Below are positions 3,166 to 22,939 of a DNA stretch of 25,016 nt, piece by piece (within the stretch, counting starts at the first letter, position 1; every line of letters begins with the position of its first letter). Both the position numbers and the translations under genes were made by a program. The stretch is taken from the IMG/VR virus record IMGVR_UViG_3300017963_000719, positions 1-25,016 of that record. The stretch is one strand, 5' to 3'. The notes beneath the pieces are model-generated. The model searched no databases. It had not been told where the DNA came from and worked only from the letters and a program-made list of their open reading frames with translations. Source of the stretch: a virus.

Positions 3166-3206
3166 CTCTCATCTCCTCGTTCTTCTCTCTGCTTCCCTCT
3201 TCCCCC

Positions 3207-3855: not shown

Positions 3856-4335
3856 CTATTCTTGCCACCTGCTCAGATCATACTCCTCCGGCTTCCCCTC
3901 CAACCCCAGCATCGGATTCGCCAGATCCCCCAGCTCCAACTCCCCGCTATCCAGCCCCTCCGCGTACTCTGCCGGCAACTCCCGCAGCTCCCCCCGCCCC
4001 TCCCGCTCGCTCCCGATCTCCCCCATCGGCGCCCGAGCCGCGCTCAACAGCCGTTCCACATCTCCCCGCACCTCTGCCGGCACCCGCATCAACACCTCCA
4101 CCACATCCTCCGGCCGCTCGCTCAGCGCCTGCTCCCCCGAGCACACCTGCGCCGCAAACTCGACCGCCGCCTGCCGCTCCGCCATCTCTGCCAGCACCCG
4201 CTCCCGCTCCTCCGCCCGCACCCGCTCCCGCAGCTCAGCCTCCCGCTCCCGCTGCTCCGCCAGCTCCGCCTCCAACCGCCCCCGCTCCTCCTCTCGGATC
4301 CGCGCCTCCAACGCAGCCCTCTCCTCTTCGCTCAT
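3856..4335 (-). CDS. Internal in-frame start: stand-alone scaffold (Mu gpZ-like)
   Basis: Inside the protease gene, the ATG at 4335 (residue 244, MSEEERAALEAR) is preceded by a full AGGAGG at 4341-4346 with 5 bases of spacing, far stronger than chance inside this frame. It would give a 159-residue product made only of the charged coiled-coil scaffold. In phage Mu, gene Z is the in-frame 3' part of gene I and makes the scaffold, so this is a direct parallel. I see the ribosome binding site; expression is inferred. Confidence 0.6.
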   Translation of the reverse strand: MSEEERAALEARIREEERGRLEAELAEQREREAELRERVRAEERERVLAEMAERQAAVEFAAQVCSGEQALSERPEDVVEVLMRVPAEVRGDVERLLSAARAPMGEIGSEREGRGELRELPAEYAEGLDSGELELGDLANPMLGLEGKPEEYDLSRWQE

Positions 4336-5571: not shown

Positions 5572-7737
5572 TCATTCTCCCAATCCTGCTCTGACCTCCC
5601 CCGCCACCTCACTAAACCGCCTCCCCAGCCACGGCCCCTCGCTCACAATCACCCCCTGCAGCGCCCGATCCCCCGCCACCACCCCCCACGGCGTCTCCAA
5701 CGGCCGCGTGCTCACCCGGTCATCCCGCGCCGTCTGCCACACCACCACCCACTCCCCGTTCGGCAGCACCCTCTCCACCGTCCAACACCGGCAATTCGTC
5801 CGCGTCGGCGGGCTGAACGCCGCCCGAGGCACCCCCACACTCTCCCTCACCAGGTCCGCCACCCCCTCATACATCCTGGTCACCTCCGTCCTGGCGATCG
5901 CCCGCCCCCGCGCCTCCCCAAACAGCGGCCCCAACATCCGCGCCAGGTCCTCCACCTCCCCCCCCACCTCCAACCACCCCCTCATCGCCTCCACCACCCC
6001 CCGCCGCGTCCGCTCCACAATCCCCCCGATCAACTCGTACGTATACTCCCGCGCCCACTTGAGCGCGTCCGCCGTCACCTCTTCCCAGTCACCGCCCACC
6101 ACCCCCCCGTCCCCCGCCTCCCCCCGCAGCAACCCGATCCCGCTGATCACCCCCACCACCACCGGCAGCAGCACCTTCATCCCCCGCTCCCGCATCCCCC
6201 GCCACAAATCCTCCCCCTCCAACTCCCCCATCGTGTATTTCCCCCATCCGTGGTCCTCCCCCTCCTCCCTCAACCACCCCCCCACCGCGTCCACCAACTC
6301 TTCCTCCCATTCCCCCCGCTCAAACCCCTCCAACGGCGGCCCCTCCCCCAGCTCCCCCAGCTCCCCCAGGTCCCCCAGCTCCCCCAGCTCCCCCAGCTCC
6401 CCCCCTCCCATCCTATCATCCTCTTGATCCTGCTCTTGATCCTGCTCTTCCCCCTCCCCCTCCGCCCCTCCGCCCCTCTGCGTTTCCTCCCCCTCCTCCT
6501 CCGTGCCCTCCGTGGTCAGGTTAATACTCGGCATCCCCGCCCGCACCCGCAGCCACTTCTCATCCTCCGGCCCCCACTGCAGCAAATCCCGCACCTGGCT
6601 CAACCATACCCCCAACACCCCCATCGAAGGCTTCTCCACCTTCTTGTGCGCCAACCGGGGCAGCTCACCCGTCACCCCCAACCGCTCAAAATACCCCCTG
6701 TTGTACCCCATCAACCGCGCCACCCCATACCGGTTGATCACCGAGGCCATCCGGTCCAACACCCCATCCACCGCCATCAAAAACAACTGGCTCTTATCCT
6801 GCCCCAGCGCCCACGAGCCGCTCCCCCCGCCCAACTCCATAAAATCCGCCATCAACGTCTGCAGCATCCACCGCCGCTCCGTCCGGATCTGTTCCAGCAG
6901 CGCCGCCGCCCCCGTATTACTCGCCGACTCCAACCGAAATTTCACCGAGTCCGGCACACTCACATACTGCTTCTCGTCGACGATCAACCCCTCCCCCACA
7001 CTCTGCACCGCCAACAAGTCATCCGCCTGCGGCTGCGACTGAAACTCAAACACCGGCAGCCCCACAAACGTCCGCTGCCACCCGATCCCGCTGATAATCG
7101 CCAAATGCTTCACTCGGTACCACGACTCGTACAGGCTCTCCCCCAGAGCCCACCCCTCCGGATTCCCCCCATCCCGCTGCCCCCGAAAATGCAAACTCTT
7201 CCCAATCGGCACCTCGATCTCCTCATACACCGGCGCCGGCCGCTGCACCATCCCCGCCACCCCCCCCGTCTCATCAAAATTCCACCGCTCAAAACTCCCC
7301 TGCCGCCTCGGCGCCCACTTCCGCCACCCGATCAACCCATCGTCGTACCGGCTCCCCGGACCGCCGGCGTCCCGCCGGCTCCTCCGCTTATAACAGATCT
7401 CCGCCCAACTCCATCCGAACCACACGCAGCTCAACGCATCCTCGATCCCATCCTCCACCGTGTGGCTCATATCCCCCAAGCAACCCTCCACAAACTCCGC
7501 CGCCGCCCGGTCCCCCGCCCCATCGCTCCCCGGCTCCACGTACCAGCTCGCCGTCCGCGCCAGCATCACCAACGCGTTCAACGCACTCCGGATCGTCGGA
7601 TCCCGCCGCCGCATCTCATCATACACGCTGTACGCCCCCGGCCAATGCAGCGCCGACGTATACCCCTCCTCCACCATCCCCCCCCACTGCGCCAACCCAC
7701 TCCGCCCCCGCTCCCCCAGATTCACTCGCTCAGGCAT
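5572..7737 (-). CDS. Portal protein (Mu gp29-like, DUF935) fused to Mu gpF-like head morphogenesis protein
   Basis: 721 residues, two phage head proteins in one chain. Residues about 1-395 look like the Mu-type portal: HWPGAYSVYDEMRRRDPTIR, ALNALVMLARTASWYV, a WFGWSWAEICYK segment and the GIGWQRTFVGLPVFEF region. Residues about 545-660 look like the gpF/SPP1 gp7 minor head family: RARGRAIARTEVTRMYEGV and a C-terminal RTNCRCW. Between them (about 400-535) lies low-complexity linker: acidic Glu/Gln runs, a 9-bp tandem repeat encoding Gly-Glu-Leu units (about 440-465) and an in-frame family C repeat (about 494-503). A family B repeat sits in frame near residue 120. The portal forms the dodecameric packaging and ejection channel, and gpF is a minor head component. 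In Mu these are separate genes. The ATG lies 3 bases after the terminase stop codon. Confidence 0.8.
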   Translation of the reverse strand: MPERVNLGERGRSGLAQWGGMVEEGYTSALHWPGAYSVYDEMRRRDPTIRSALNALVMLARTASWYVEPGSDGAGDRAAAEFVEGCLGDMSHTVEDGIEDALSCVWFGWSWAEICYKRRSRRDAGGPGSRYDDGLIGWRKWAPRRQGSFERWNFDETGGVAGMVQRPAPVYEEIEVPIGKSLHFRGQRDGGNPEGWALGESLYESWYRVKHLAIISGIGWQRTFVGLPVFEFQSQPQADDLLAVQSVGEGLIVDEKQYVSVPDSVKFRLESASNTGAAALLEQIRTERRWMLQTLMADFMELGGGSGSWALGQDKSQLFLMAVDGVLDRMASVINRYGVARLMGYNRGYFERLGVTGELPRLAHKKVEKPSMGVLGVWLSQVRDLLQWGPEDEKWLRVRAGMPSINLTTEGTEEEGEETQRGGGAEGEGEEQDQEQDQEDDRMGGGELGELGELGDLGELGELGEGPPLEGFERGEWEEELVDAVGGWLREEGEDHGWGKYTMGELEGEDLWRGMRERGMKVLLPVVVGVISGIGLLRGEAGDGGVVGGDWEEVTADALKWAREYTYELIGGIVERTRRGVVEAMRGWLEVGGEVEDLARMLGPLFGEARGRAIARTEVTRMYEGVADLVRESVGVPRAAFSPPTRTNCRCWTVERVLPNGEWVVVWQTARDDRVSTRPLETPWGVVAGDRALQGVIVSEGPWLGRRFSEVAGEVRAGLGE
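6228..6254. repeat. Dispersed repeat family C inside the portal gene
   Basis: A 27-bp copy in frame within the linker of the fused portal/gpF protein; it encodes residues HGWGKYTMG. Confidence 0.8.
6342..6412. repeat. 9-bp tandem repeat in the portal linker
   Basis: About eight units of AGCTCCCCC (variants AGGTCCCCC), encoding repeated Gly-Glu-Leu/Gly-Asp-Leu in the linker of the portal fusion. Likely prone to slippage in steps of three residues, so length could vary without loss of frame. Confidence 0.85.
7358..7379. repeat. Dispersed repeat family B, copy in portal gene
   Basis: Family B core: GGACCGCCGG then CGTCCCGCCGGC on the plus strand, with a 6-bp palindrome CCGGCG/CGCCGG. It is in frame in the portal gene and encodes RRDAGGPG. 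Confidence 0.8.
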
Positions 7738-7740
7738 AAC

Positions 7741-9483
7741 TCACCTATATCCCCCTGGACCGCTGGCGTCTCGCCGGCCCCCCGACTCCCCATCGTGTAT
7801 TCCCCCATCCGTGGTATACTCCCCAAACAAATCCCACCTACTCGCCCTCCCCCCATCCTGCGGCACCTCGCTCATCCGCGCCATCCCCGGCAGCATCTGC
7901 ACCGCCCCGCTCACCGCATCCACCATATCATCGTGCACCCCATTCGGAAACGCCAGGCACTCCGCCACAAACGCATCATTCCACGCCCCCCGCACCAGGT
8001 GCACCAACCCATCCTCGATCCGGCTCGCCCACACATTCGCCCGCACCAACTTGCTATCCCGAGGCGCCACCCCCTCCAGCGCCAGGTGCGCCAACGAGTC
8101 CGCCTCCGCCCACTCCTGATAATACCCCCCCTGCTGCCCGCTGATCTCCACCCCCTGCGTCACCGTTGGCCCATCCCGCAGCATAACCTCCTCGATCTTG
8201 CCCTTCGCCTTGCTCCACGGACCCGGAAACCGCGCCACATCCTCGATAAACCACTGCCCATCCACCCGCGCCACCCGCGCCCCCGCCAGCCAGTCCGCCC
8301 GCCGCTTCCCACTCACCGCCAGGTCCCAATACCGCGCCCGCCGCGCCCCCTTTCCCACCACCTCCGCATCCACCACCCGCATCCCGCTCACGTCGATCAC
8401 ATCCCCCTTTGGCTTCCGCGCCCGCTGCTGGTACAACGCGTCAAACTCATACCCCCCCACATTCGCCCGGATCCCCAGCAACACCTCCACTCCCGCCTTC
8501 TCTGGCCACAACGCCTCCCCCGGCGCCCGCCCCAACGGGTCCGCCCCCAACCACCACCCTTCCCTCAGCGCCTGTATCACCCGCTCCCCCCACGATTCCC
8601 CCTCCTCCTCCTGGACCGCTGGCGTCCCGCCGGCCTCCCCCTCCACCCACTCCCTCCCCGCCGCCCACTCCTCCGCCAGCGCCGGCATACACAACACCAC
8701 CCACTGATCCGCTCCCCCCTCTCCCATCGGAATGGGAGAGGGGTCGGGGGTGAGGGCCTCCCCCACCATCGCCCGCAACAACCGCCCGCTCAAATCGTCC
8801 AAATGCCACCGCGTCTGGATCACGATCGCCGCCGCCCCATCCTCCAGCCGCGTGTACGCCGTACTCGTCCACCACGACCCCACCCGGTCCCTCGCCACCT
8901 GGCTCTCCGCCTCCGCCCGGTCCTTGTGCGGATCATCCACGATCAACACATCCGCGCCCTTCCCCGTCAACCCTCCACCCACCCCCGCCGCCACCATCCC
9001 CCCCCTGTGCCCCTCCAGATTCCACTCCTCCACACTCCGGCTCTCCCGCGACACCCCCACCCGCTCCGTCGACGCACTCAAATCCCCAAACAACGCCCGA
9101 TATGCCGTCGTCGACAACAAATCCCTGCACCGCCGGCTAAACCCCATCGCCAGCGAACCATTATATGACGACACGATCACCCGCTTCTCCGGCATTCGCC
9201 CCAGCACAAACGCCGGAAACAACACACTCGCCGACGTGCTCTTCCAATATCGTGGCGGCATATTCACCATCAACCGCCCAATCCCCTCCCGCCCCCTCGT
9301 CTCCACATACCGCGCCACCCCATCCAGGTACTCCCCCAGCAACCCCAAATGCCGCGCCCCCGCCGGCCACCCTGGCTCCACATACTCCGCAAAACGACAA
9401 AAAGCGCGCCGAGCCCGCTCCCTCCGGATCCGCTCCCGCCGCGCCTGCTCCCCGATTCCCATCCGCCCAATCCCCATCCTCAC
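7741..9483 (-). CDS. Phage terminase large subunit (ATPase and nuclease)
   Basis: 580 residues. ATPase domain: a Walker A-like PPRYWKST (76-83), Walker B VLIVDDPHKD (179-188) and the coupling segment QTRWHLDDLSGRLL (223-236). Nuclease domain: RYWDLAVSG (384-392), GVEISGQQGGYYQEW (444-458) and HDDMVDAVSGAVQM (517-530), with the acidic residues expected of the RNase H-like fold. It drives DNA into the prohead and cuts concatemers. Oddities: the Gly normally before the Walker A Lys is Trp. A family A repeat is inserted in frame at residues about 243-257 (LTPDPSPIPMGEGG), a family B repeat at about 285-293, and the last ~30 residues are made of family C and B sequence. The insertions fall between the ATPase and nuclease domains or at the tail, where they may be tolerated. 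The start is GTG 9483 or ATG 9477. Confidence 0.92.
   Translation of the reverse strand: MRMGIGRMGIGEQARRERIRRERARRAFCRFAEYVEPGWPAGARHLGLLGEYLDGVARYVETRGREGIGRLMVNMPPRYWKSTSASVLFPAFVLGRMPEKRVIVSSYNGSLAMGFSRRCRDLLSTTAYRALFGDLSASTERVGVSRESRSVEEWNLEGHRGGMVAAGVGGGLTGKGADVLIVDDPHKDRAEAESQVARDRVGSWWTSTAYTRLEDGAAAIVIQTRWHLDDLSGRLLRAMVGEALTPDPSPIPMGEGGADQWVVLCMPALAEEWAAGREWVEGEAGGTPAVQEEEGESWGERVIQALREGWWLGADPLGRAPGEALWPEKAGVEVLLGIRANVGGYEFDALYQQRARKPKGDVIDVSGMRVVDAEVVGKGARRARYWDLAVSGKRRADWLAGARVARVDGQWFIEDVARFPGPWSKAKGKIEEVMLRDGPTVTQGVEISGQQGGYYQEWAEADSLAHLALEGVAPRDSKLVRANVWASRIEDGLVHLVRGAWNDAFVAECLAFPNGVHDDMVDAVSGAVQMLPGMARMSEVPQDGGRASRWDLFGEYTTDGGIHDGESGGRRDASGPGGYR
7755..7778. repeat. Dispersed repeat family B, copy at terminase C-terminus
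   Basis: In-frame copy with the core GGACCGCTGG, encoding GGRRDASGPGG just before the terminase stop codon. Confidence 0.8.
7790..7815. repeat. Dispersed repeat family C, copy at terminase C-terminus
   Basis: In-frame copy encoding YTTDGGIHDG; with the neighbouring family B copy it forms the C-terminal tail of the terminase. Confidence 0.8.
8611..8634. repeat. Dispersed repeat family B, copy inside terminase
   Basis: In-frame copy encoding AGGTPAVQE between the ATPase and nuclease domains. Confidence 0.8.
8714..8760. repeat. Dispersed repeat family A, copy inside terminase
   Basis: CCCTCTCCCAT/ATGGGAGAGGG hairpin plus the GTCGGGGGTGAGGGC tail, read through in frame as LTPDPSPIPMGEGG within the terminase gene. 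Confidence 0.88.
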
Positions 9484-13317: not shown

Positions 13318-13340
13318 CCGCTAATGTGTGTTAGGGGACC
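13318..13340 (+). other. dif-like recombination site S2
   Basis: Left arm CCGCTAA, 6-bp centre TGTGTG, right arm TTAGGGGACC. It overlaps the stop codon of the gene ending at 13331 and is the left boundary of the first cassette. Confidence 0.5.
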
Positions 13341-13570
13341 TGTGGACCTTTCGGGCTTTCTGGTACATCTGGCCCTAGTATCCCGATCCTTAACCGTTCA
13401 GGCATATCGTCATAACGATCAATAGCCGCAAGGGTCACGATTGCGCCATTGTCTAAGAGTATATGGCAGTTACCGTCCTTCTCATATAGATTGATGGAGA
13501 GAATCGACGCTCCTGCATACAAATGATTTACTGATTCCTCGGCGTGTTCATCATCCAGCCATCCAAGCAT
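13331..13570 (-). CDS. Hypothetical protein of cassette 1
   Basis: 79 residues with ordinary, less GC-biased codon use: acidic N-terminus (LGWLDDEHAEESVNHLY), then two beta-like segments (ASILSINLYEKDGNCHILLDNGA). GGAGG precedes the ATG with a spacing of 6. It is the second gene of the low-GC pair and starts 30 bases after its partner, so the two are probably co-transcribed. Small acidic paired genes in such cassettes are often toxin-antitoxin or defence partners, but nothing in the sequence proves this. Confidence 0.65.
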   Translation of the reverse strand: MLGWLDDEHAEESVNHLYAGASILSINLYEKDGNCHILLDNGAIVTLAAIDRYDDMPERLRIGILGPDVPESPKGPQVP

Positions 13571-13600
13571 TTCTACCCTCCAGACTATCCTTCCGAGTAG

Positions 13601-13888
13601 TCAACTTATCGGAACCGACTGATCCACGTTCAGTTCTGTCCAACTCATTGAACTGTCGCTATAGAATGCCAAAAATCCGGGCTTAGGAAATGAACAATCT
13701 GGTGCCTCCCAGTCGTACCAGTGCACCTGCGTGCCAAAAACGAACCGATCACCAAGATTCTCCTCAAACCACTGAAGCCAGGCATCTTTGACACCTTCCG
13801 AGCAACATAACCGAATCTGTGTTACGAATGGAGGCAGATCTGCTATTCTGGACTGCACGTCCAAAAGATCACTCACTATGTCATTCAT
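13601..13888 (-). CDS. Hypothetical protein of cassette 1
   Basis: 95 residues, acidic and rich in aromatic residues: MNDIVSDLLDVQSRIADLP, then AWLQWFEENLGDRFVFG, HWYDWEAPDCSFPKPGFLAFY. GGAGG with 6 bases of spacing precedes the ATG at 13888. The codon use is clearly different from the G-rich phage genes on both sides. I do not recognise the family. It is first in the two-gene cassette, so both proteins may act together. Confidence 0.65.
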   Translation of the reverse strand: MNDIVSDLLDVQSRIADLPPFVTQIRLCCSEGVKDAWLQWFEENLGDRFVFGTQVHWYDWEAPDCSFPKPGFLAFYSDSSMSWTELNVDQSVPIS

Positions 13889-13930
13889 TTCGTCCTCCGC
13901 GTATCCACATTATGAGAGCCTGGCTGCCCA

Positions 13931-13953
13931 GGTCCCCTAAGAGTCATTATCGG
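13931..13953 (-). other. dif-like recombination site S3
   Basis: On the minus strand: left arm CCGATAA, centre TGACTC, right arm TTAGGGGACC. It is inverted relative to S2. The stop codon of the upstream gene (13937-13939) is inside the right arm. Confidence 0.5.
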
Positions 13954-14425: not shown

Positions 14426-14488
14426 CCATCGTGTATTTCCCCCGCTGTACTCAGCGGCATCCGTGGTTTATCCGTGGTTTATCCGAGG
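14426..14488. repeat. Dispersed repeat family C, extended copy after parA
   Basis: Extended form with hairpin CCGCTGTACTCAGCGG and a duplicated ATCCGTGGTTT. It supplies the last two codons and the stop of parA. Confidence 0.85.
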
Positions 14489-15279
14489 TGCATCTCCCGC
14501 CGCAACCGCCCCATCACACTCCCATACCCCCCGATCACCTCGTACCGCTCCTCCTCCCGGTCCACCATCACCTCCGCCCCCTGCACCACCCGGCTATCGA
14601 TACAATACTCCCACACCGTCTCCCCCCGCCGCGCCGCCTCCGCCGCCTTCACATCCACCGGTACCGGCGGCCACACCAGCCGCTTGAACCCCCGCGCCAA
14701 CGCCTTAAACTGCCCCCGGCCCTCCCGGCTCCGCTGGTCCCACATCGTCGGCAGCACCCCCAACCACTTCCCCTTAAACGCCCCCACCTGCCGCAGAGAC
14801 GCAACCGTCCCCAGCAGGTCTCCCGCACCCACAACCGCCAGGTGCTGCAGCCCCACCGGCGTCAACACCCAATCGCACGCGATCAACGCCCCGATCTGCA
14901 AAACGTCGACGCCGGGAGCAGTATCGAGAACGCACAGATCATACCGCTCGCCGAACCCTCCCAGCCTGTCCCGCAGCTTGTACTCTCGGAAATTCTCCGT
15001 CACCAGCCGGCTCTTCGCCTCCACCGTCGAATGATCCGACAGCACCACATCCAACCCCTCCCGCCTCGACCCGCACACCGCCCCCCGCTCCGACCCGTAT
15101 AGCAGCTCCCGCCCCCCCCCCCGCTTCTCCAACCCCAAACTATCCGCCACATTCCCCTGCGCGTCCAGGTCCACCAGCAACATCCGCTTCCCTTCCCTGG
15201 CCAGCCCCGAAGCAATCGTCACCGCCGTCGTCGTCTTGCCCACCCCACCCTTCTGATTAAAAATCCCCAACACCTTCAT
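14479..15279 (-). CDS. parA: ParA-family partition ATPase
   Basis: 266 residues with all deviant Walker signatures of ParA/Soj: KGGVGKTT (10-17, with the signature Lys10), VDLDAQGN (36-43) and CVLDTAPG (116-123). There is no N-terminal DNA-binding extension, so it is the short, Soj-like type. With ATP, such proteins form a gradient on the nucleoid and move ParB-bound DNA, keeping a plasmid or plasmid-prophage stable. A ParB-like gene lies about 2.8 kb upstream in the same orientation, separated by the helicase gene, which is not the usual adjacent parAB layout. GGAGAGG precedes the ATG. Confidence 0.93.
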   Translation of the reverse strand: MKVLGIFNQKGGVGKTTTAVTIASGLAREGKRMLLVDLDAQGNVADSLGLEKRGGGRELLYGSERGAVCGSRREGLDVVLSDHSTVEAKSRLVTENFREYKLRDRLGGFGERYDLCVLDTAPGVDVLQIGALIACDWVLTPVGLQHLAVVGAGDLLGTVASLRQVGAFKGKWLGVLPTMWDQRSREGRGQFKALARGFKRLVWPPVPVDVKAAEAARRGETVWEYCIDSRVVQGAEVMVDREEERYEVIGGYGSVMGRLRREMHLG

Positions 15280-18111: not shown

Positions 18112-20202
18112 CTATCCCCTCAACCACGGCTTCCCCCACCCCGTCGGCCAGGAATCCCGCCCCCAATACCTGTTATCCTCCCCCCTTTGCCAGTTCTCCC
18201 AGCTCACCGCCGCCCACCGCTCCTCCACCCCCGTCGACGGGTCCAGCAACTTGAACGGCATCCGCATTCGGTTCCCTGCCTTCACCTCCGAGCACAATAC
18301 CGCCAGCAGCGTCGCCACCCGTTCGTCCCCCAGCTCCTTCCACACCCGCCGCACGAATCGCCGCAGCCGCTGCACGTCGTACACCTGCTCCCGATCCTCC
18401 CGCTCATACGGCAGCCAGGCCAGCGGCCCCCCCAGCGTGTAATTGTGCGTCGTCTGGTTCGTTCGCCCCGTCGCCATCCGCCCCATCCACTCCAGCACCA
18501 TCGTCCGGTCCGGCAGCGCGAACCCCGCGCTCGGCAGCAGCACCCCCTTCAACCACTCCCAATTCGCCCGGAACTGCACGCACCTCGGCAGCATCCGCCC
18601 CCCCTCGTCCACCAGCACCCCATACTCTGGCGCCTTCGGCCGGTTCCCATATTTCTTCTTCAGCGGCTCCACCGCGTACTCACACGGCGGCAGCCCCGCC
18701 TCCAGCAGCCCCTTCCGGTACGACGTGCACCGCTCGCACAAATGCGCCTGAAACGACGTCGTCTCGACGAGACCCTCGCGCTGCGCCCCCCAATACGCCT
18801 CCATTGGCCCCAGGTGCGCCCGGTTCTCCTCCTCCTGCGCCTGGCGCATCTGCTCCGCCCTGGCCGCCATCGCCGCGTCGATCGCCGCCGCGTACAACCC
18901 CGCCTCCGTAAAATGCGCGAACGGCTCTGTGGCCATCCCCTCCAGCCCCAGCCTCTCCACCCATCCCTGAAACGCGCGGTCCGTCGCCGGCAGCACCAGC
19001 GCTTCATCCTTCCCCTGCCACGCCTCGCACGTCGTGATCCCCGCCTCCTCCGGGTCCTCCCCCTCCGACAGCGACTCCCATCGCACGCACTGGCACTCGT
19101 ACCTGTGCACCCCCGGCCCGGGCAATCCGCACAGCCGGCACGATTCGCACGTCCACCCCCGCTCCCCCGCCGCCTGGCGCCACAATGACCCAAAGTCCGC
19201 CTTTTTCGTCCCCATCAGCGCGCTCAGCACCGTCGCCAGGTGCCGGCCCTCCACGATCGTCTCCGCCCGCTTCCCCAGCAAATTATCGCGGCCCCATCCC
19301 GTGTCCCGCAGCCCCAGCAGCCGCTCCCCCAGCTCATCATCCAGCGCGAGCTGGCCCACCAGGTGCCGCATCAGCCGGTACCGGTTCCGCAGCCGAGGCT
19401 TCTCCAACCGGCCGTCCCCGGTCGGCACCCACCGCTGGGGCTTCACAAACTCCCGCACCTCCCGCGCCAGGTTTGCCACCTGCCGCACCGTCGCGCTTTG
19501 GTCCCCCGCCCGCTGCACCTGGCTCACCACCTCCCGCGTCACCGCCCCCTGCAGCGCCTCCGGCACCTGCGCGATATGCCGCAAATGGCTCGCGCTGATT
19601 ACACGTGTATTCAACGCCTCCCGCGCCTCCTCCACCGTCCCCAGCAGGCTCAGCCGCTGCTGCACCTTCCCCTGGCTCCAGCCCATCATCGTCGCCACCT
19701 CGCGCTGCGTCAACTCATACTCATCGATCAACCCCTGCAGCGCCCGCGCCTCCTCCAGCGCGCTCAAATTCTTCCGCTGGATGTTGTCCGCCACCGCCAG
19801 CTCGTGCAGCCGACGGCGGTCCCCATCCGCCTCGATCCGCGCCTCGATCTCCCCCTCCGCCATCCCCACCAGCTCGACCTGGACCTCCTCCCCCAGCGAC
19901 GTCCACCCCTCCCGCGCCACGTGCTCGATCGCCTTCCGCAGCCCGTTCCCGTGCCTGGCCACCCACGATCGCGCCTTGATCAGCGCCAGCGCCGTCATCG
20001 CCCGCGTCCGCCGCTCCCCCGCGATCAGCTCATTCTCCCCCCGCTCGTTCACCCACACGATCACCGGGTACATCAACCCGTGATCCCGGATGTGCTTCGC
20101 CAGCTCCAGCAGCTCCTCAGCGTCGAATGCTTCCCGAGGCTGCCACCGGCTCGGCGCCATCGTTGATATCGCGATCCGATGCAAAACCAATTGCTCACTC
20201 AT
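18112..20202 (-). CDS. parB: Large ParB/Srx-domain protein with added Cys-rich domain
   Basis: 696 residues, over twice a usual ParB. N-terminal ParB domain: ELIAGERRTRA with the GERR motif at 62-65 and ADNIQRKNLSALEEA (138-152). HTH: LTQREVATMMGWSQGKVQQR (164-183). Between these lies an unusual ~65-residue insertion. The C-terminal half holds two Cys sets, CESCRLC (354-360) with CQC at 372-374 and CERC (491-494) with Cys509, probably zinc-binding. ParB binds parS and, with CTP or not, loads ParA-driven partition complexes. Alternatively this is a ParB-like replication or transcription regulator of the phage. The C-terminal domain is not recognised. Confidence 0.82.
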   Translation of the reverse strand: MSEQLVLHRIAISTMAPSRWQPREAFDAEELLELAKHIRDHGLMYPVIVWVNERGENELIAGERRTRAMTALALIKARSWVARHGNGLRKAIEHVAREGWTSLGEEVQVELVGMAEGEIEARIEADGDRRRLHELAVADNIQRKNLSALEEARALQGLIDEYELTQREVATMMGWSQGKVQQRLSLLGTVEEAREALNTRVISASHLRHIAQVPEALQGAVTREVVSQVQRAGDQSATVRQVANLAREVREFVKPQRWVPTGDGRLEKPRLRNRYRLMRHLVGQLALDDELGERLLGLRDTGWGRDNLLGKRAETIVEGRHLATVLSALMGTKKADFGSLWRQAAGERGWTCESCRLCGLPGPGVHRYECQCVRWESLSEGEDPEEAGITTCEAWQGKDEALVLPATDRAFQGWVERLGLEGMATEPFAHFTEAGLYAAAIDAAMAARAEQMRQAQEEENRAHLGPMEAYWGAQREGLVETTSFQAHLCERCTSYRKGLLEAGLPPCEYAVEPLKKKYGNRPKAPEYGVLVDEGGRMLPRCVQFRANWEWLKGVLLPSAGFALPDRTMVLEWMGRMATGRTNQTTHNYTLGGPLAWLPYEREDREQVYDVQRLRRFVRRVWKELGDERVATLLAVLCSEVKAGNRMRMPFKLLDPSTGVEERWAAVSWENWQRGEDNRYWGRDSWPTGWGKPWLRG

Positions 20203-20219: not shown

Positions 20220-21044
20220 TTATCCCCCGCCAGCATCCCCCGCTGGCCTGTGTGCATTCTCAACCTCGATCAGCGTCCGCAGCCCCTCCTTCTCGTACAC
20301 CTCCACCCCCGCCGCCGCGCACATCCCCCCCACCCGCTCCGCGAAATCCGTCCAATTCACGGGCCGCAGCGCGTACCTCAACCCCGTCGGCAGCCGCCCC
20401 GCGTAATTCAACGGCCCCACCTTCACCTCCCTGATCCCCACCGAGATCGCCTGCTCCAACAGCCGCAAACTCTGCTCCGGAAAAATCACCGGCTCCAGGC
20501 TCACCCACGTCCGCGCCCCCGTCAGCCAGTCCGCCCGCCGCAGTCCCTCCAACCGTTCCCACGGCAGCGCCGCGTTCGGCTCCCACAGCCGGCTCTCCAC
20601 CTCATTCTCCAGCGTCAGCGTCGCCGCGTACTCATCCCCCTCCCCCAGCAAGTCCAGGTCCCGCGTGCTCTCCCGTCCCCCCTTTGTCAAAATCTGCACC
20701 CGGTGCCCGTGCCCCTTCAGCACCTCGATCGCGTGCCGCGTCAGCAGCCGCTCCACCCCCACCGCCCCCGCGTGCACCAGCGGCCGGGGGTACGGATCGC
20801 ACGAAAAACACAGGTGCACCAGCAAACTCTCCCCCCGCGCCTCAAACCACACCGCATCCCGCTCCAACCTGGTCAGAATGTCCTTGCGCGCCCTCGCCTC
20901 CGTGTGAAACGCGTACTTGGCCATCCGCAACACCCCCGGTCCATAGCAGTAGGCGCACCCGTGCGGGCACCCCCGGTACAAATTCACCGCCCAATCCGCG
21001 TACTCCGCCGCCCGTCCCCTCGGCCGATAAATCACCCTTGCCAT
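20220..21044 (-). CDS. Radical SAM protein, spore photoproduct lyase-like (SPL family)
   Basis: 274 residues. NLYRGCPHGCAYCYGP carries the CxxxCxxC iron-sulfur motif (Cys26, Cys30, Cys33), with the surrounding sequence of the SPL/Rv2578c-like branch. Later segments such as LLVHLCFSCDPYPRP, VQILTKGG and WVSLEPVI fit the SAM-binding barrel. The family includes DNA repair and uncharacterised enzymes that use SAM radicals; the substrate here cannot be told. It sits between the ParB-like and primase genes, so a DNA repair or DNA or nucleotide modification role for the phage is an inference. The ATG abuts the stop of the small gene upstream, with AGGGAGGG in front. Confidence 0.85.
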   Translation of the reverse strand: MARVIYRPRGRAAEYADWAVNLYRGCPHGCAYCYGPGVLRMAKYAFHTEARARKDILTRLERDAVWFEARGESLLVHLCFSCDPYPRPLVHAGAVGVERLLTRHAIEVLKGHGHRVQILTKGGRESTRDLDLLGEGDEYAATLTLENEVESRLWEPNAALPWERLEGLRRADWLTGARTWVSLEPVIFPEQSLRLLEQAISVGIREVKVGPLNYAGRLPTGLRYALRPVNWTDFAERVGGMCAAAGVEVYEKEGLRTLIEVENAHRPAGDAGGG

Positions 21045-21215
21045 CTAACCCTCCCTCTCCCCGCTAATGTATTTGGCGGACCGCCTCCGCATTCGCTCCG
21101 CCGCCACAATCCCCTGCCACTCTCGATATACCTCCCTCAGCTCGATCATCGCCCCCCTCAGCACGCGCCGGTACATCCGTACCAGTAATCGCCACTCCTG
21201 CACAATCGCCCGCAT
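21045..21215 (-). CDS. Small basic helical protein
   Basis: 56 residues, starting at ATG 21215 after GGGGAGAGGG and ending directly before the radical SAM start codon. The sequence MRAIVQEWRLLVRMYRRVLRG and IELREVYREWQGIVAAERMR forms one or two long amphipathic basic helices. Its C-terminal codons contain dif-like site S6. It is bounded by two directly repeated sites (S4 and S6), so it could itself be a small cassette. Unknown function. Confidence 0.6.
   Translation of the reverse strand: MRAIVQEWRLLVRMYRRVLRGAMIELREVYREWQGIVAAERMRRRSAKYISGEREG
21061..21082 (+). other. dif-like site S6
   Basis: Left arm CCGCTAA, centre TGTATT, right arm TGGCGGACC. It is in direct orientation to S4, 168 bp away, and both share the flank CTCTCCCC on the left. 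Confidence 0.4.
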
Positions 21216-21228
21216 CTCAACCCTCTCC

Positions 21229-21251
21229 CCGCCAATGTGTGCTCGCGGACC
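21229..21251 (+). other. dif-like site S4
   Basis: Left arm CCGCCAA, centre TGTGTG (identical to S2), right arm CTCGCGGACC. It is the left boundary of the second cassette, 4 bp beyond the stop of its gene. Confidence 0.45.
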
Positions 21252-21254
21252 TAG

Positions 21255-21503
21255 CTAGCCCAGCACGATCTGCCGTGCCTGTTTCAACGTTGATCCTCTC
21301 TCTAGTAATTCCACAATCCGCTTGCACTTGGCACAATTACACGCAGCCGGCGGACCGCCGCCAACGGCCTGAATCGCCGTCAGACTGTCCCGGATGCTGT
21401 CGCCGTCCTCGGCCAAACAGAGAATTTCAACACTCGGTTTCTTATCGAGTACATAGGCCATCGACTCGCTAAGCCCTATGTCCACGTGTGTGATTATGTC
21501 CAT
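21255..21503 (-). CDS. Hypothetical CNCAKC protein of cassette 2
   Basis: 82 residues. The first half is acidic alpha/beta (ITHVDIGLSESMAYVLDKKP), followed by a Gly/Pro hinge, CNCAKCKRIVELLERG (Cys55, Cys57, Cys60; possible metal site) and a basic helix. Codon use is less GC-rich than the phage genes. A small regulator or an anti-defence protein would be plausible, but the family is unknown. Confidence 0.6.
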   Translation of the reverse strand: MDIITHVDIGLSESMAYVLDKKPSVEILCLAEDGDSIRDSLTAIQAVGGGPPAACNCAKCKRIVELLERGSTLKQARQIVLG

Positions 21504-21558
21504 CTAGCCTATCTCCTGATACTGGTTCTCATTCGCAGAACCGGCAAAGTGTCTCATA

Positions 21559-21582
21559 GCTCCCCTACGAGCCATTATGCGG
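21559..21582 (-). other. dif-like site S5
   Basis: On the minus strand: left arm TGTCCGCATAA, centre TGGCTC, right arm GTAGGGGAGC. The left arm has the CGCATAA of classical dif sites. The TAA is also the primase stop codon. Confidence 0.45.
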
Positions 21583-22681
21583 ACACTCCCACCCGCGCCA
21601 GCTCCCACTCCACCCACCCTCGCACATCCCCTCCCCCCTGCAAAAACCCGTTCGGATCCCCTCCGCTGGGCGCCTGCACCCGTCCCCCTCGCGCTCCCAG
21701 CAGCTCCCCCCACGCCCCCCACGCCCGCCCCCCCGCCTCATCCCCGTCCATCCGCACCAGCACCCGCTCGTACCCCGCCAGCTCCCCCCACCACCGCCGC
21801 CACGCGTGCGGCCTCACGGATGCGCTCCCACTGCTCAACACATCCACCAACGGCGCCTCGCTCCCCCCGCCCGCCTCCTGCCAAATCGTCAAATGATTCC
21901 ACTCCCCCTCCTCAATCATTAGCACCCGCTCCCCCCGCAGCTCCTCATACCCATATAGCCCTCCCTTGCTGCCGGCCACCTTCACGTACTTCTTCTCCCC
22001 CTTTGCCCGCCCCGCCGCCGTGTATCCCTCCGGCCGGCAAATCTTCACGCTCCACAACGCTCCATCCCCCCAGCACGGCATCACGATCCCCCTCGGCAAC
22101 CACACCCGCCGGCTCCCCTCCGCCTCCAACCCCCACGCCCCCCTCGCCTCATACCGCGTCCTCGCGTTATACCCAATCCGAAAAAACGCCACCCCGTGCG
22201 CCTGCAGCCCGCGCGTCTCGCACAACCACGCCAACGCCTGCTCTCCCTGCCGCTCCCATAGCGCCCGCTGGCACCGTTCCACAAACTCCCACCCCCGCGC
22301 CTGCCACTCCTCCCCCGGCGGCTCCACCTCCGGCAGGGCAGGGGAGAAGGGCGGCGCCGGTCTCACCTCTGGCCCGCGCTCCATCGCCGCCCCCGGCCCA
22401 TCCACCACACTCGGCGCCAGTTCCCTACACGCCTCCACAAACCCCACCTTCCGCCGTTCCATCACAAACGAAATCGCGTCGCCGTGCACACCGCACCCGT
22501 AGCAATGATACGTCCCCGTATCCGGCGTCACCCCAAAGGATGCCGTTCTCTCCTCCCCATTCGCGTGAAACGGGCACCGCCAAAACACCCACCGGCCGCT
22601 CTGCCTCGCCGGCGGCCCCAACTCCCCCTCCACCAGCTCCACCAGGTTCACCCTGGCCAGCACCGCCGCCCGCTCAATCAT
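21575..22681 (-). CDS. DnaG-type phage primase
   Basis: 368 residues. The N-terminal CHC2-type zinc finger has Cys36, His39, Cys60, Cys63 (CPFH ... YHCYGCGVHGDAISFVM). The TOPRIM-like domain has LMIEEGEWNHLTIW (254-267) and VRMDGDEAGGRAW (309-321, acidic pair D312/D314). The third acidic position of the EGxxD motif appears to be Asn. It would make RNA primers or act with the DUF3987 protein in phage replication. There is no C-terminal helicase domain, which fits a separate helicase gene. GAGAGGGG precedes the ATG. The stop codon is inside dif-like site S5. Confidence 0.88.
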   Translation of the reverse strand: MIERAAVLARVNLVELVEGELGPPARQSGRWVFWRCPFHANGEERTASFGVTPDTGTYHCYGCGVHGDAISFVMERRKVGFVEACRELAPSVVDGPGAAMERGPEVRPAPPFSPALPEVEPPGEEWQARGWEFVERCQRALWERQGEQALAWLCETRGLQAHGVAFFRIGYNARTRYEARGAWGLEAEGSRRVWLPRGIVMPCWGDGALWSVKICRPEGYTAAGRAKGEKKYVKVAGSKGGLYGYEELRGERVLMIEEGEWNHLTIWQEAGGGSEAPLVDVLSSGSASVRPHAWRRWWGELAGYERVLVRMDGDEAGGRAWGAWGELLGARGGRVQAPSGGDPNGFLQGGGDVRGWVEWELARVGVSA

Positions 22682-22905: not shown

Positions 22906-22939
22906 CCTATGTCCGACAACCTACATTATCGGACATAGG
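22906..22939 (-). other. Palindromic dif-like site S1 (candidate attP or resolution site)
   Basis: On the minus strand: left arm CCTATGTCCGATAA, centre TGTAGG, right arm TTGTCGGACATAGG. The arms are inverted repeats of 14 bp with one mismatch. Arm-6-arm spacing and the core ATAATGTA match classical dif sites (E. coli core CATAATGTATATTATG). Confidence 0.55.

Follow-up and report, generated by a model that had tools for sequence, protein, structure and literature searches.

Small genes in a viral genome lie between recurring two-arm sites with end-specific centres: likely dif-module-like cassettes in phages

It is a long-standing question how phage genomes acquire single accessory genes without the help of transposases, and a case in point is an 82-codon gene wedged behind a primase gene in the linear, 25,016-base IMG/VR virus record IMGVR_UViG_3300017963_000719 (GC 65.5%), the whole of which is called the window here. 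The neighbours of this gene, both recognised by family match and both on the minus strand, are a DnaG-type primase gene with a CHC2 zinc finger (21575–22681) and, downstream, a radical SAM protein gene (20220–21044). Family searches found terminase-like, portal-like, ParA, ParB-like, primase and repressor genes in the window, and therefore the record, which is probably incomplete, may be a phage-plasmid; that its lysogenic state is plasmid-like is suggested by the presence of ParA and of a large ParB-like protein (14479–15279 and 18112–20202) in the genome of a tailed phage. The window gave no match to the tyrosine recombinase family PF00589, and a search for close relatives of the phage through its primase reached 35% identity at most. 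Its host might be a member of the Chloroflexota, a guess that goes by the style of the repeats and the type of the repressor. Dispersed repeats of the CATCGTGTATTTCCCCCATCCGTGGT type and of the GAGAGGGGTCGGGGGTGAGGGCC type run through the window, at positions 6224, 9502, 10997, 11388, 11421 and 13961 and at 3204, 3812, 8714 and 14275, and these are possibly host repeats.

The 82-residue gene (21255–21503, minus strand) lies between two sites of a kind that we call type A, both of them profile matches. On its 5' side, S5 (21559–21581, minus strand) reads CGCATAA TGGCTC GTAGGGGAGC, and on its 3' side S4 (21229–21251) reads GGTCCGCGAG CACACA TTGGCGG in the sense of the gene, that is, on the minus strand, and CCGCCAA TGTGTG CTCGCGGACC on the plus strand. 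The original prediction had enclosed the gene between these two sites, inversely oriented to one another and with the stop codon of the upstream primase inside the site, and so they are: the coordinates agree, S4 reads on the plus and S5 on the minus strand, and the primase TAA occupies 21575–21577, within S5. The centre TGTGTG said to be shared by S4 and a site of a second cassette, S2, is indeed identical in both, while the likeness of S5 to the other site of that cassette, S3, put at 18 of 21 core bases, is in fact 18 of 23. A profile built from S2, S3, S4 and S5, with 40 first-order Markov copies of the window as background, scored 26.8–34.1 on its four sites, which are the four best matches of the window; the next window match reached 14.5 and the Markov copies 16.6 at most. 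When each site was left out of the profile in turn, it still ranked second, third, fourth or fifth in the window, and with S5 omitted the sole non-site scoring above it was a palindrome at 22910, called P below.

The protein itself is an orphan. It carries the motif ACNCAKCKR, around the core CNCAKC; searches of Pfam, PHROGs and PADLOC gave no match to it and NCBIfam an insignificant one, and its single-sequence AlphaFold model (pLDDT 51) is too poor for use. Homologues between the same ends, which the original prediction had proposed to look for, did not turn up, as no relative was found in IMG/VR or among GenBank phages, and mobility of the gene itself is therefore read solely from its ends.

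Cassette 1 of the window, whose features all lie on the minus strand, has ends of two kinds. The 5' type A site S3 (13931–13953), CCGATAA TGACTC TTAGGGGACC, again holds the stop codon of the upstream gene, and the 3' type A site S2 (13318–13340) reads GGTCCCCTAA CACACA TTAGCGG in the cassette sense, its TGTGTG centre reading on the plus strand. Nested between them are ends of a second kind, type B: a 5' site, 5B (13894–13916), CTCATAA TGTGGA TACGCGGAGG, and a 3' site, 3B (13590–13615), GTTCCGATAA GTTGAC TACTCGGAAG. A 95-aa cargo gene (13601–13888) runs from one to the other, its end VPIS* falling inside 3B, and the cassette has a further cargo gene, of 79 aa (13331–13570). Near the 82-aa gene there is a third type A 3' site, Sx (21061–21082, minus strand), GGTCCGCCAA ATACA TTAGCGG, with a centre of 5 bp and a GGGGAGAGGG continuation in common with S4; it immediately precedes the radical SAM gene and follows the 56-aa ORF found between S4 and Sx (21045–21215, minus strand), for which family searches found no protein family and which is possibly a second small cargo. 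The GC content is 0.55 for the 82-aa gene and 0.47–0.49 for the genes of cassette 1, against 0.64–0.71 in the remaining genes of the window; the small cassette genes look like foreign cargo.

A pattern scan of IMG/VR with the type A sites found exactly two records besides the window, G001 and G002, two versions of one phage with about 91–99% identity over aligned pieces. In both, a 168-aa methyltransferase-like gene lies between a 5' site, CCGCTAA TGACTC TTAGGGGACC, and a 3' site, GGTCCGCCAA CACACA TTAACGG, and neither has any DNA in common with the window except the site. The asymmetry of the centres is the same in both genomes, TGACTC or TGGCTC before the gene and TGTGTG (CACACA in gene sense) after it. 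Recurrence of the site in other phages, named beforehand as the point on which the idea could fail, was thus found, with the same ends flanking a methyltransferase elsewhere and a related end type flanking other genes in several more phages. Beyond L008/L009 and the window, relaxed type A patterns in IMG/VR gave chance matches or sites without a partner; the five GTDB matches of the pattern, outside which TGTATA-type centres fall, were all judged chance, no real cassette site was found in plasmids or GenBank phages, and a methyltransferase relative of 62% identity (L036/L037) had no clear sites. The cassette ends of the window are a real, shared cassette boundary system. The original prediction had taken matching ends to imply a shared mobilisation; the common cassette system stands, since the ends recur around other genes, and mobilisation itself and its enzyme do not follow from it. 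The picture is also wider than predicted, as it takes in the direct half-sites of type B, the third type A 3' site Sx and arms resembling P.

Inverted ends of about 23 bp around foreign DNA of lower GC are what a non-autonomous, MITE-like transposon with terminal inverted repeats would show, and we give that account the faintest of chances. The outer flanks of S2/S3, of S4/S5 and of the G002 sites differ by eye, with no target duplication, and the direct transposon reading was dropped because that test failed; moreover, the conserved centre changes from one end to the other, type B has direct ends, and insertion is at gene 3' ends and not random. A phage attL/attR pair was also discarded, given that an identical overlap is absent and the centres differ between both ends of every cassette.

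The type B ends proved more widespread. The word TCCGATAAGTTGACT at the gene 3' end is common to the methyltransferase cassette and cassette 1, and a scan of IMG/VR for it returned chance matches together with a set of phages in which 3B follows a gene, this gene being mostly preceded by AATGTGGATACGCGGAGG, that is, by 5B. The 3B centre was included in the search pattern, so that its conservation is partly due to selection; 5B was absent from the pattern. Units with both ends hold the 95-aa gene of the window, two genes in tandem in G003, two in G005 (PAPS-reductase-like and Cys-rich proteins), one in G006 and one, with a weaker 5B, in G004, type B ends enclosing unrelated genes in G003, G004, G005 and G006. 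The 319 kb of these phages contain eight copies of 5B, six of which head a unit closing with 3B, and in several cargo proteins 3B encodes a C-terminal (V/L/D)PIS followed by the stop. A blind 15-mer comparison of the window with seven other phages likewise returned the cassette ends as the longest common words, of 29, 20 and 19 nt, one of which occurs in six of the seven.

Cargo varies while the ends persist, and two comparisons make this plain. G002 and its relative G005 have a VWA protein (68% identical) and a D5/primase-like protein (69% identical) in common, and the slot between these two genes holds the methyltransferase cassette in G002 and a tRNA-Thr with the PAPS-reductase-like gene in G005; 3B closes both, and the 5' ends differ in type. 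G004 and G006 share an ASCH-like gene, about 70% identical, at whose 3' end 3B is conserved better than the gene, similarity falling to background beyond it. The sample comprises about ten cassettes in seven records, in which G001 and G002 are one phage and G003 and G006 are related, and in it no empty site, circle or junction was seen. The tRNA-Thr of the G005 slot lies at L060:5579-5652, before the PAPS-reductase-like gene.

Such turnover is also accounted for by the main rival, short-homology mosaicism, in which phage or host proteins would join genomes by homologous or annealing recombination at boundary microhomology, with no site-specific enzyme. Phage mosaicism at short conserved boundaries is well known; 3B, as the best-conserved part of the G004/G006 junction, is what one expects of a homology handle, and the stops and ribosome binding sites inside the sites could be retained for expression. 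Nonetheless, this account predicts neither the exact 6-bp spacing of two inverted half-sites, nor the end-specific centres, nor the likeness to P, which adjoins tyrosine-recombinase genes, and we consider it rather improbable.

The spacing came from a search for two half-sites across centre sizes, which at a score above 11 gave 20 matches at 6 bp and 0–7 at any other size; with an arm profile derived from P and the cassette arms, what counts is how the centre sizes compare. Half-sites are inverted in the type A sites of both window cassettes and of G002, and direct in type B. Palindrome P (22908–22937, without strand), near-perfect and reading TATGTCCGACAA CCTACA TTATCGGACATA, is classed by its arms and its plasmid context as a site of the tyrosine-recombinase core type. 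It is conserved around a variable 6-bp centre at L105:7935-7964 and L107:4629-4658 as well; in G003 the arms are identical to those of the window, with the centre CAAACG, and adjoin the cassette array, and G006 has a diverged copy, with GCGACC as its centre, in the equivalent place. A BLAST search of plasmid sequences returned P from many alphaproteobacterial ones (best E 1e-3), and in pTiBo542 and in Yoonia and Sphingomonas sanxanigenens plasmids it lies just upstream of, or overlaps, the start of a tyrosine-recombinase gene. The exact pattern occurs in 2 of 296 Sphingomonadales genomes (reversed control, 0), abutting in one of the two a recombinase of the plasmid P-linked family, and a literature search for the P sequence gave nothing relevant. 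Because it adjoins recombinase genes in plasmids and Sphingomonadales, P is, judged by sequence, most likely a tyrosine-recombinase core site, although in that position it could be an operator and not a crossover site. Among 52 cassette-site arms, which are not mutually independent, 28 resemble the P arm at p<0.01, the right arm of 5B being weakly P-like; the likeness points to the cassette-site arms belonging with P and hence with a tyrosine recombinase. Such recombinases are encoded by G001, G002, G003, G005 and G006, and those found are not close relatives of the plasmid P-linked ones.

If P were an operator, the cassette sites might likewise be operators, terminators or mRNA-protecting hairpins which travel with the cargo for its expression. 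A GGAGG ribosome binding site closes 5B, strong hairpins extend some 3B sites (L105, z -4.3; L106, z -2.4), and P gives a good fold (z -7.4) and lies against the start codons of recombinase genes, all of which such a regulatory role would explain. It leaves the 6-bp geometry and the change of cargo between the same elements unexplained, however, the hairpin of the window 3B is absent or weak (z -1.1), and an Rfam search gave no family match, so we hold it to be unlikely.

We therefore return to site-specific recombination, and regard the chances as evenly balanced that a tyrosine recombinase acting at dif-like sites moves these cargo cassettes, in the manner of pdif modules and with centres that differ between the two ends. 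The 82-aa gene would be a cargo cassette, or "moron", inserted behind the primase gene, and its ends would be dif-like, each a 6-bp centre between two inverted half-sites of the GTCCG.TAA kind; several temperate phages, unrelated to one another, would have slots for such cassettes at the 3' ends of genes. The centres would name the ends, TGRCTC (5') and TGTGTG (3') in type A and TGTGGA (5') and GTTGAC (3') in type B, and an Xer-like recombinase, which could come from the host (Xer proteins) or from a phage (tyrosine recombinases), would swap one whole cassette for another whose ends match, 5' end for 5' end and 3' end for 3' end. Simple inversion or excision between a cassette's own ends would be disfavoured, and exchange with the same pair of ends allowed, because the two ends carry different conserved centres. 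That a recombinase works at the sites is inferred, as is the route of exchange. The window system would then be a variant of dif-module-like cassettes found in phages, by a mechanism that is likely but unproven.

Among the closest known systems are the pdif modules of Acinetobacter plasmids, small accessory genes flanked on either side by a dif-like site. A pdif site has a central region of 6 bp and, to its left and right, an arm of about 11 bp (PMC6449649). The cassette sites share this geometry, with the 20 matches at 6 bp, and the inversely oriented ends (in type A only) and the difference of centres between the two ends are also alike. In contrast, the window cassettes occur in phages, their centres are fixed by end, 5' or 3', type B ends are direct, and the arms are of the GTCCG.TAA/TTAGGGGACC kind and not of the Xer consensus. 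The left arm of S5 ends in GCATAA, as XerC arms do. The right arm of E. coli dif is TTATGTTAAAT, and by eye the right arms TTAGGGGACC and TACGCGGAGG have no resemblance to it.

In laboratory recombinase-mediated cassette exchange, a cassette is flanked by two sites for the same recombinase with incompatible centres, and exchange is favoured over excision and inversion. One slot with different cargo between homologous flanks, as in G002 and G005, is what this would leave, and the phage system would differ in being a natural case. A natural cassette exchange of this kind in phages, in which a pair of heterospecific tyrosine-recombinase sites flanks the cargo, the centre of each site marks its end, 5' or 3', and whole genes pass between slots of unrelated phages with no part for integrons or transposons, is put forward tentatively, as a possibility that we do not favour; as far as we have found, such a cassette system is apparently undescribed. 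If it is true, the recurring pair of sites is a mechanism testable with short synthetic sites, cargo genes can be found by their ends alone, and phages have a counterpart of plasmid dif modules.

Integrons and clusters of attC sites have been reported in phages (PMC9892861), and like them the units described here are small genes that bring a start region of their own, stand in tandem (in G003) and have recombination sites. The 3' site and the next 5' site might accordingly form a folded attC hairpin for an integron integrase, and type A 3' sites do read close to RYYYAAC. Yet the region between the G003 cassettes does not pair the outer boxes, other parts pairing on folding; the GTTRRRY/RYYYAAC core triplets are not retained in type B, a site stands at both ends of each unit, and the G002 recombinase scores 107 bits against an integron-integrase cut-off of 265. 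The direct integron reading was dropped on the failed fold, the missing cores and the lack of an integron integrase (the window being without PF00589), and we leave it a slight chance.

Phage morons and mosaic boundary sequences also place extra genes of deviating GC between conserved phage genes, but boundaries of the window type have a defined two-arm, 6-bp geometry common to unrelated phages. The plasmid tyrosine-recombinase loci (pTiBo542, by DUF1403, ScpB and repC; Yoonia; Sphingomonas sanxanigenens) are alike in having P beside or overlapping the recombinase start, and differ in that no cassettes of the window kind were noticed alongside.

For G003 and G006, P was considered as the phage attP and rejected, as a common tRNA-Asn core fits better. 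This tRNA-Asn-like 3'-end core lies at L121:318-371, L129:4615-4657 and L133:7801-7854, and the two copies in G006, some 75 kb from each other, give that record the look of a prophage with attL, attR and host flanks. On the short contig L085, at about 4079-4105 and 4214-4255, 3B gives way directly to a type-A-like 3' site, and a further P-like site is present, as though several types of site were stacked. Finally, long hairpins (GTTGACTAC with GTAGTCAAC; GACTTC with GAAGTC), in which a change on one arm is matched on the other, extend some 3B sites, at L105:7157-7190 and 7841-7874 and at L106:2409-2445.
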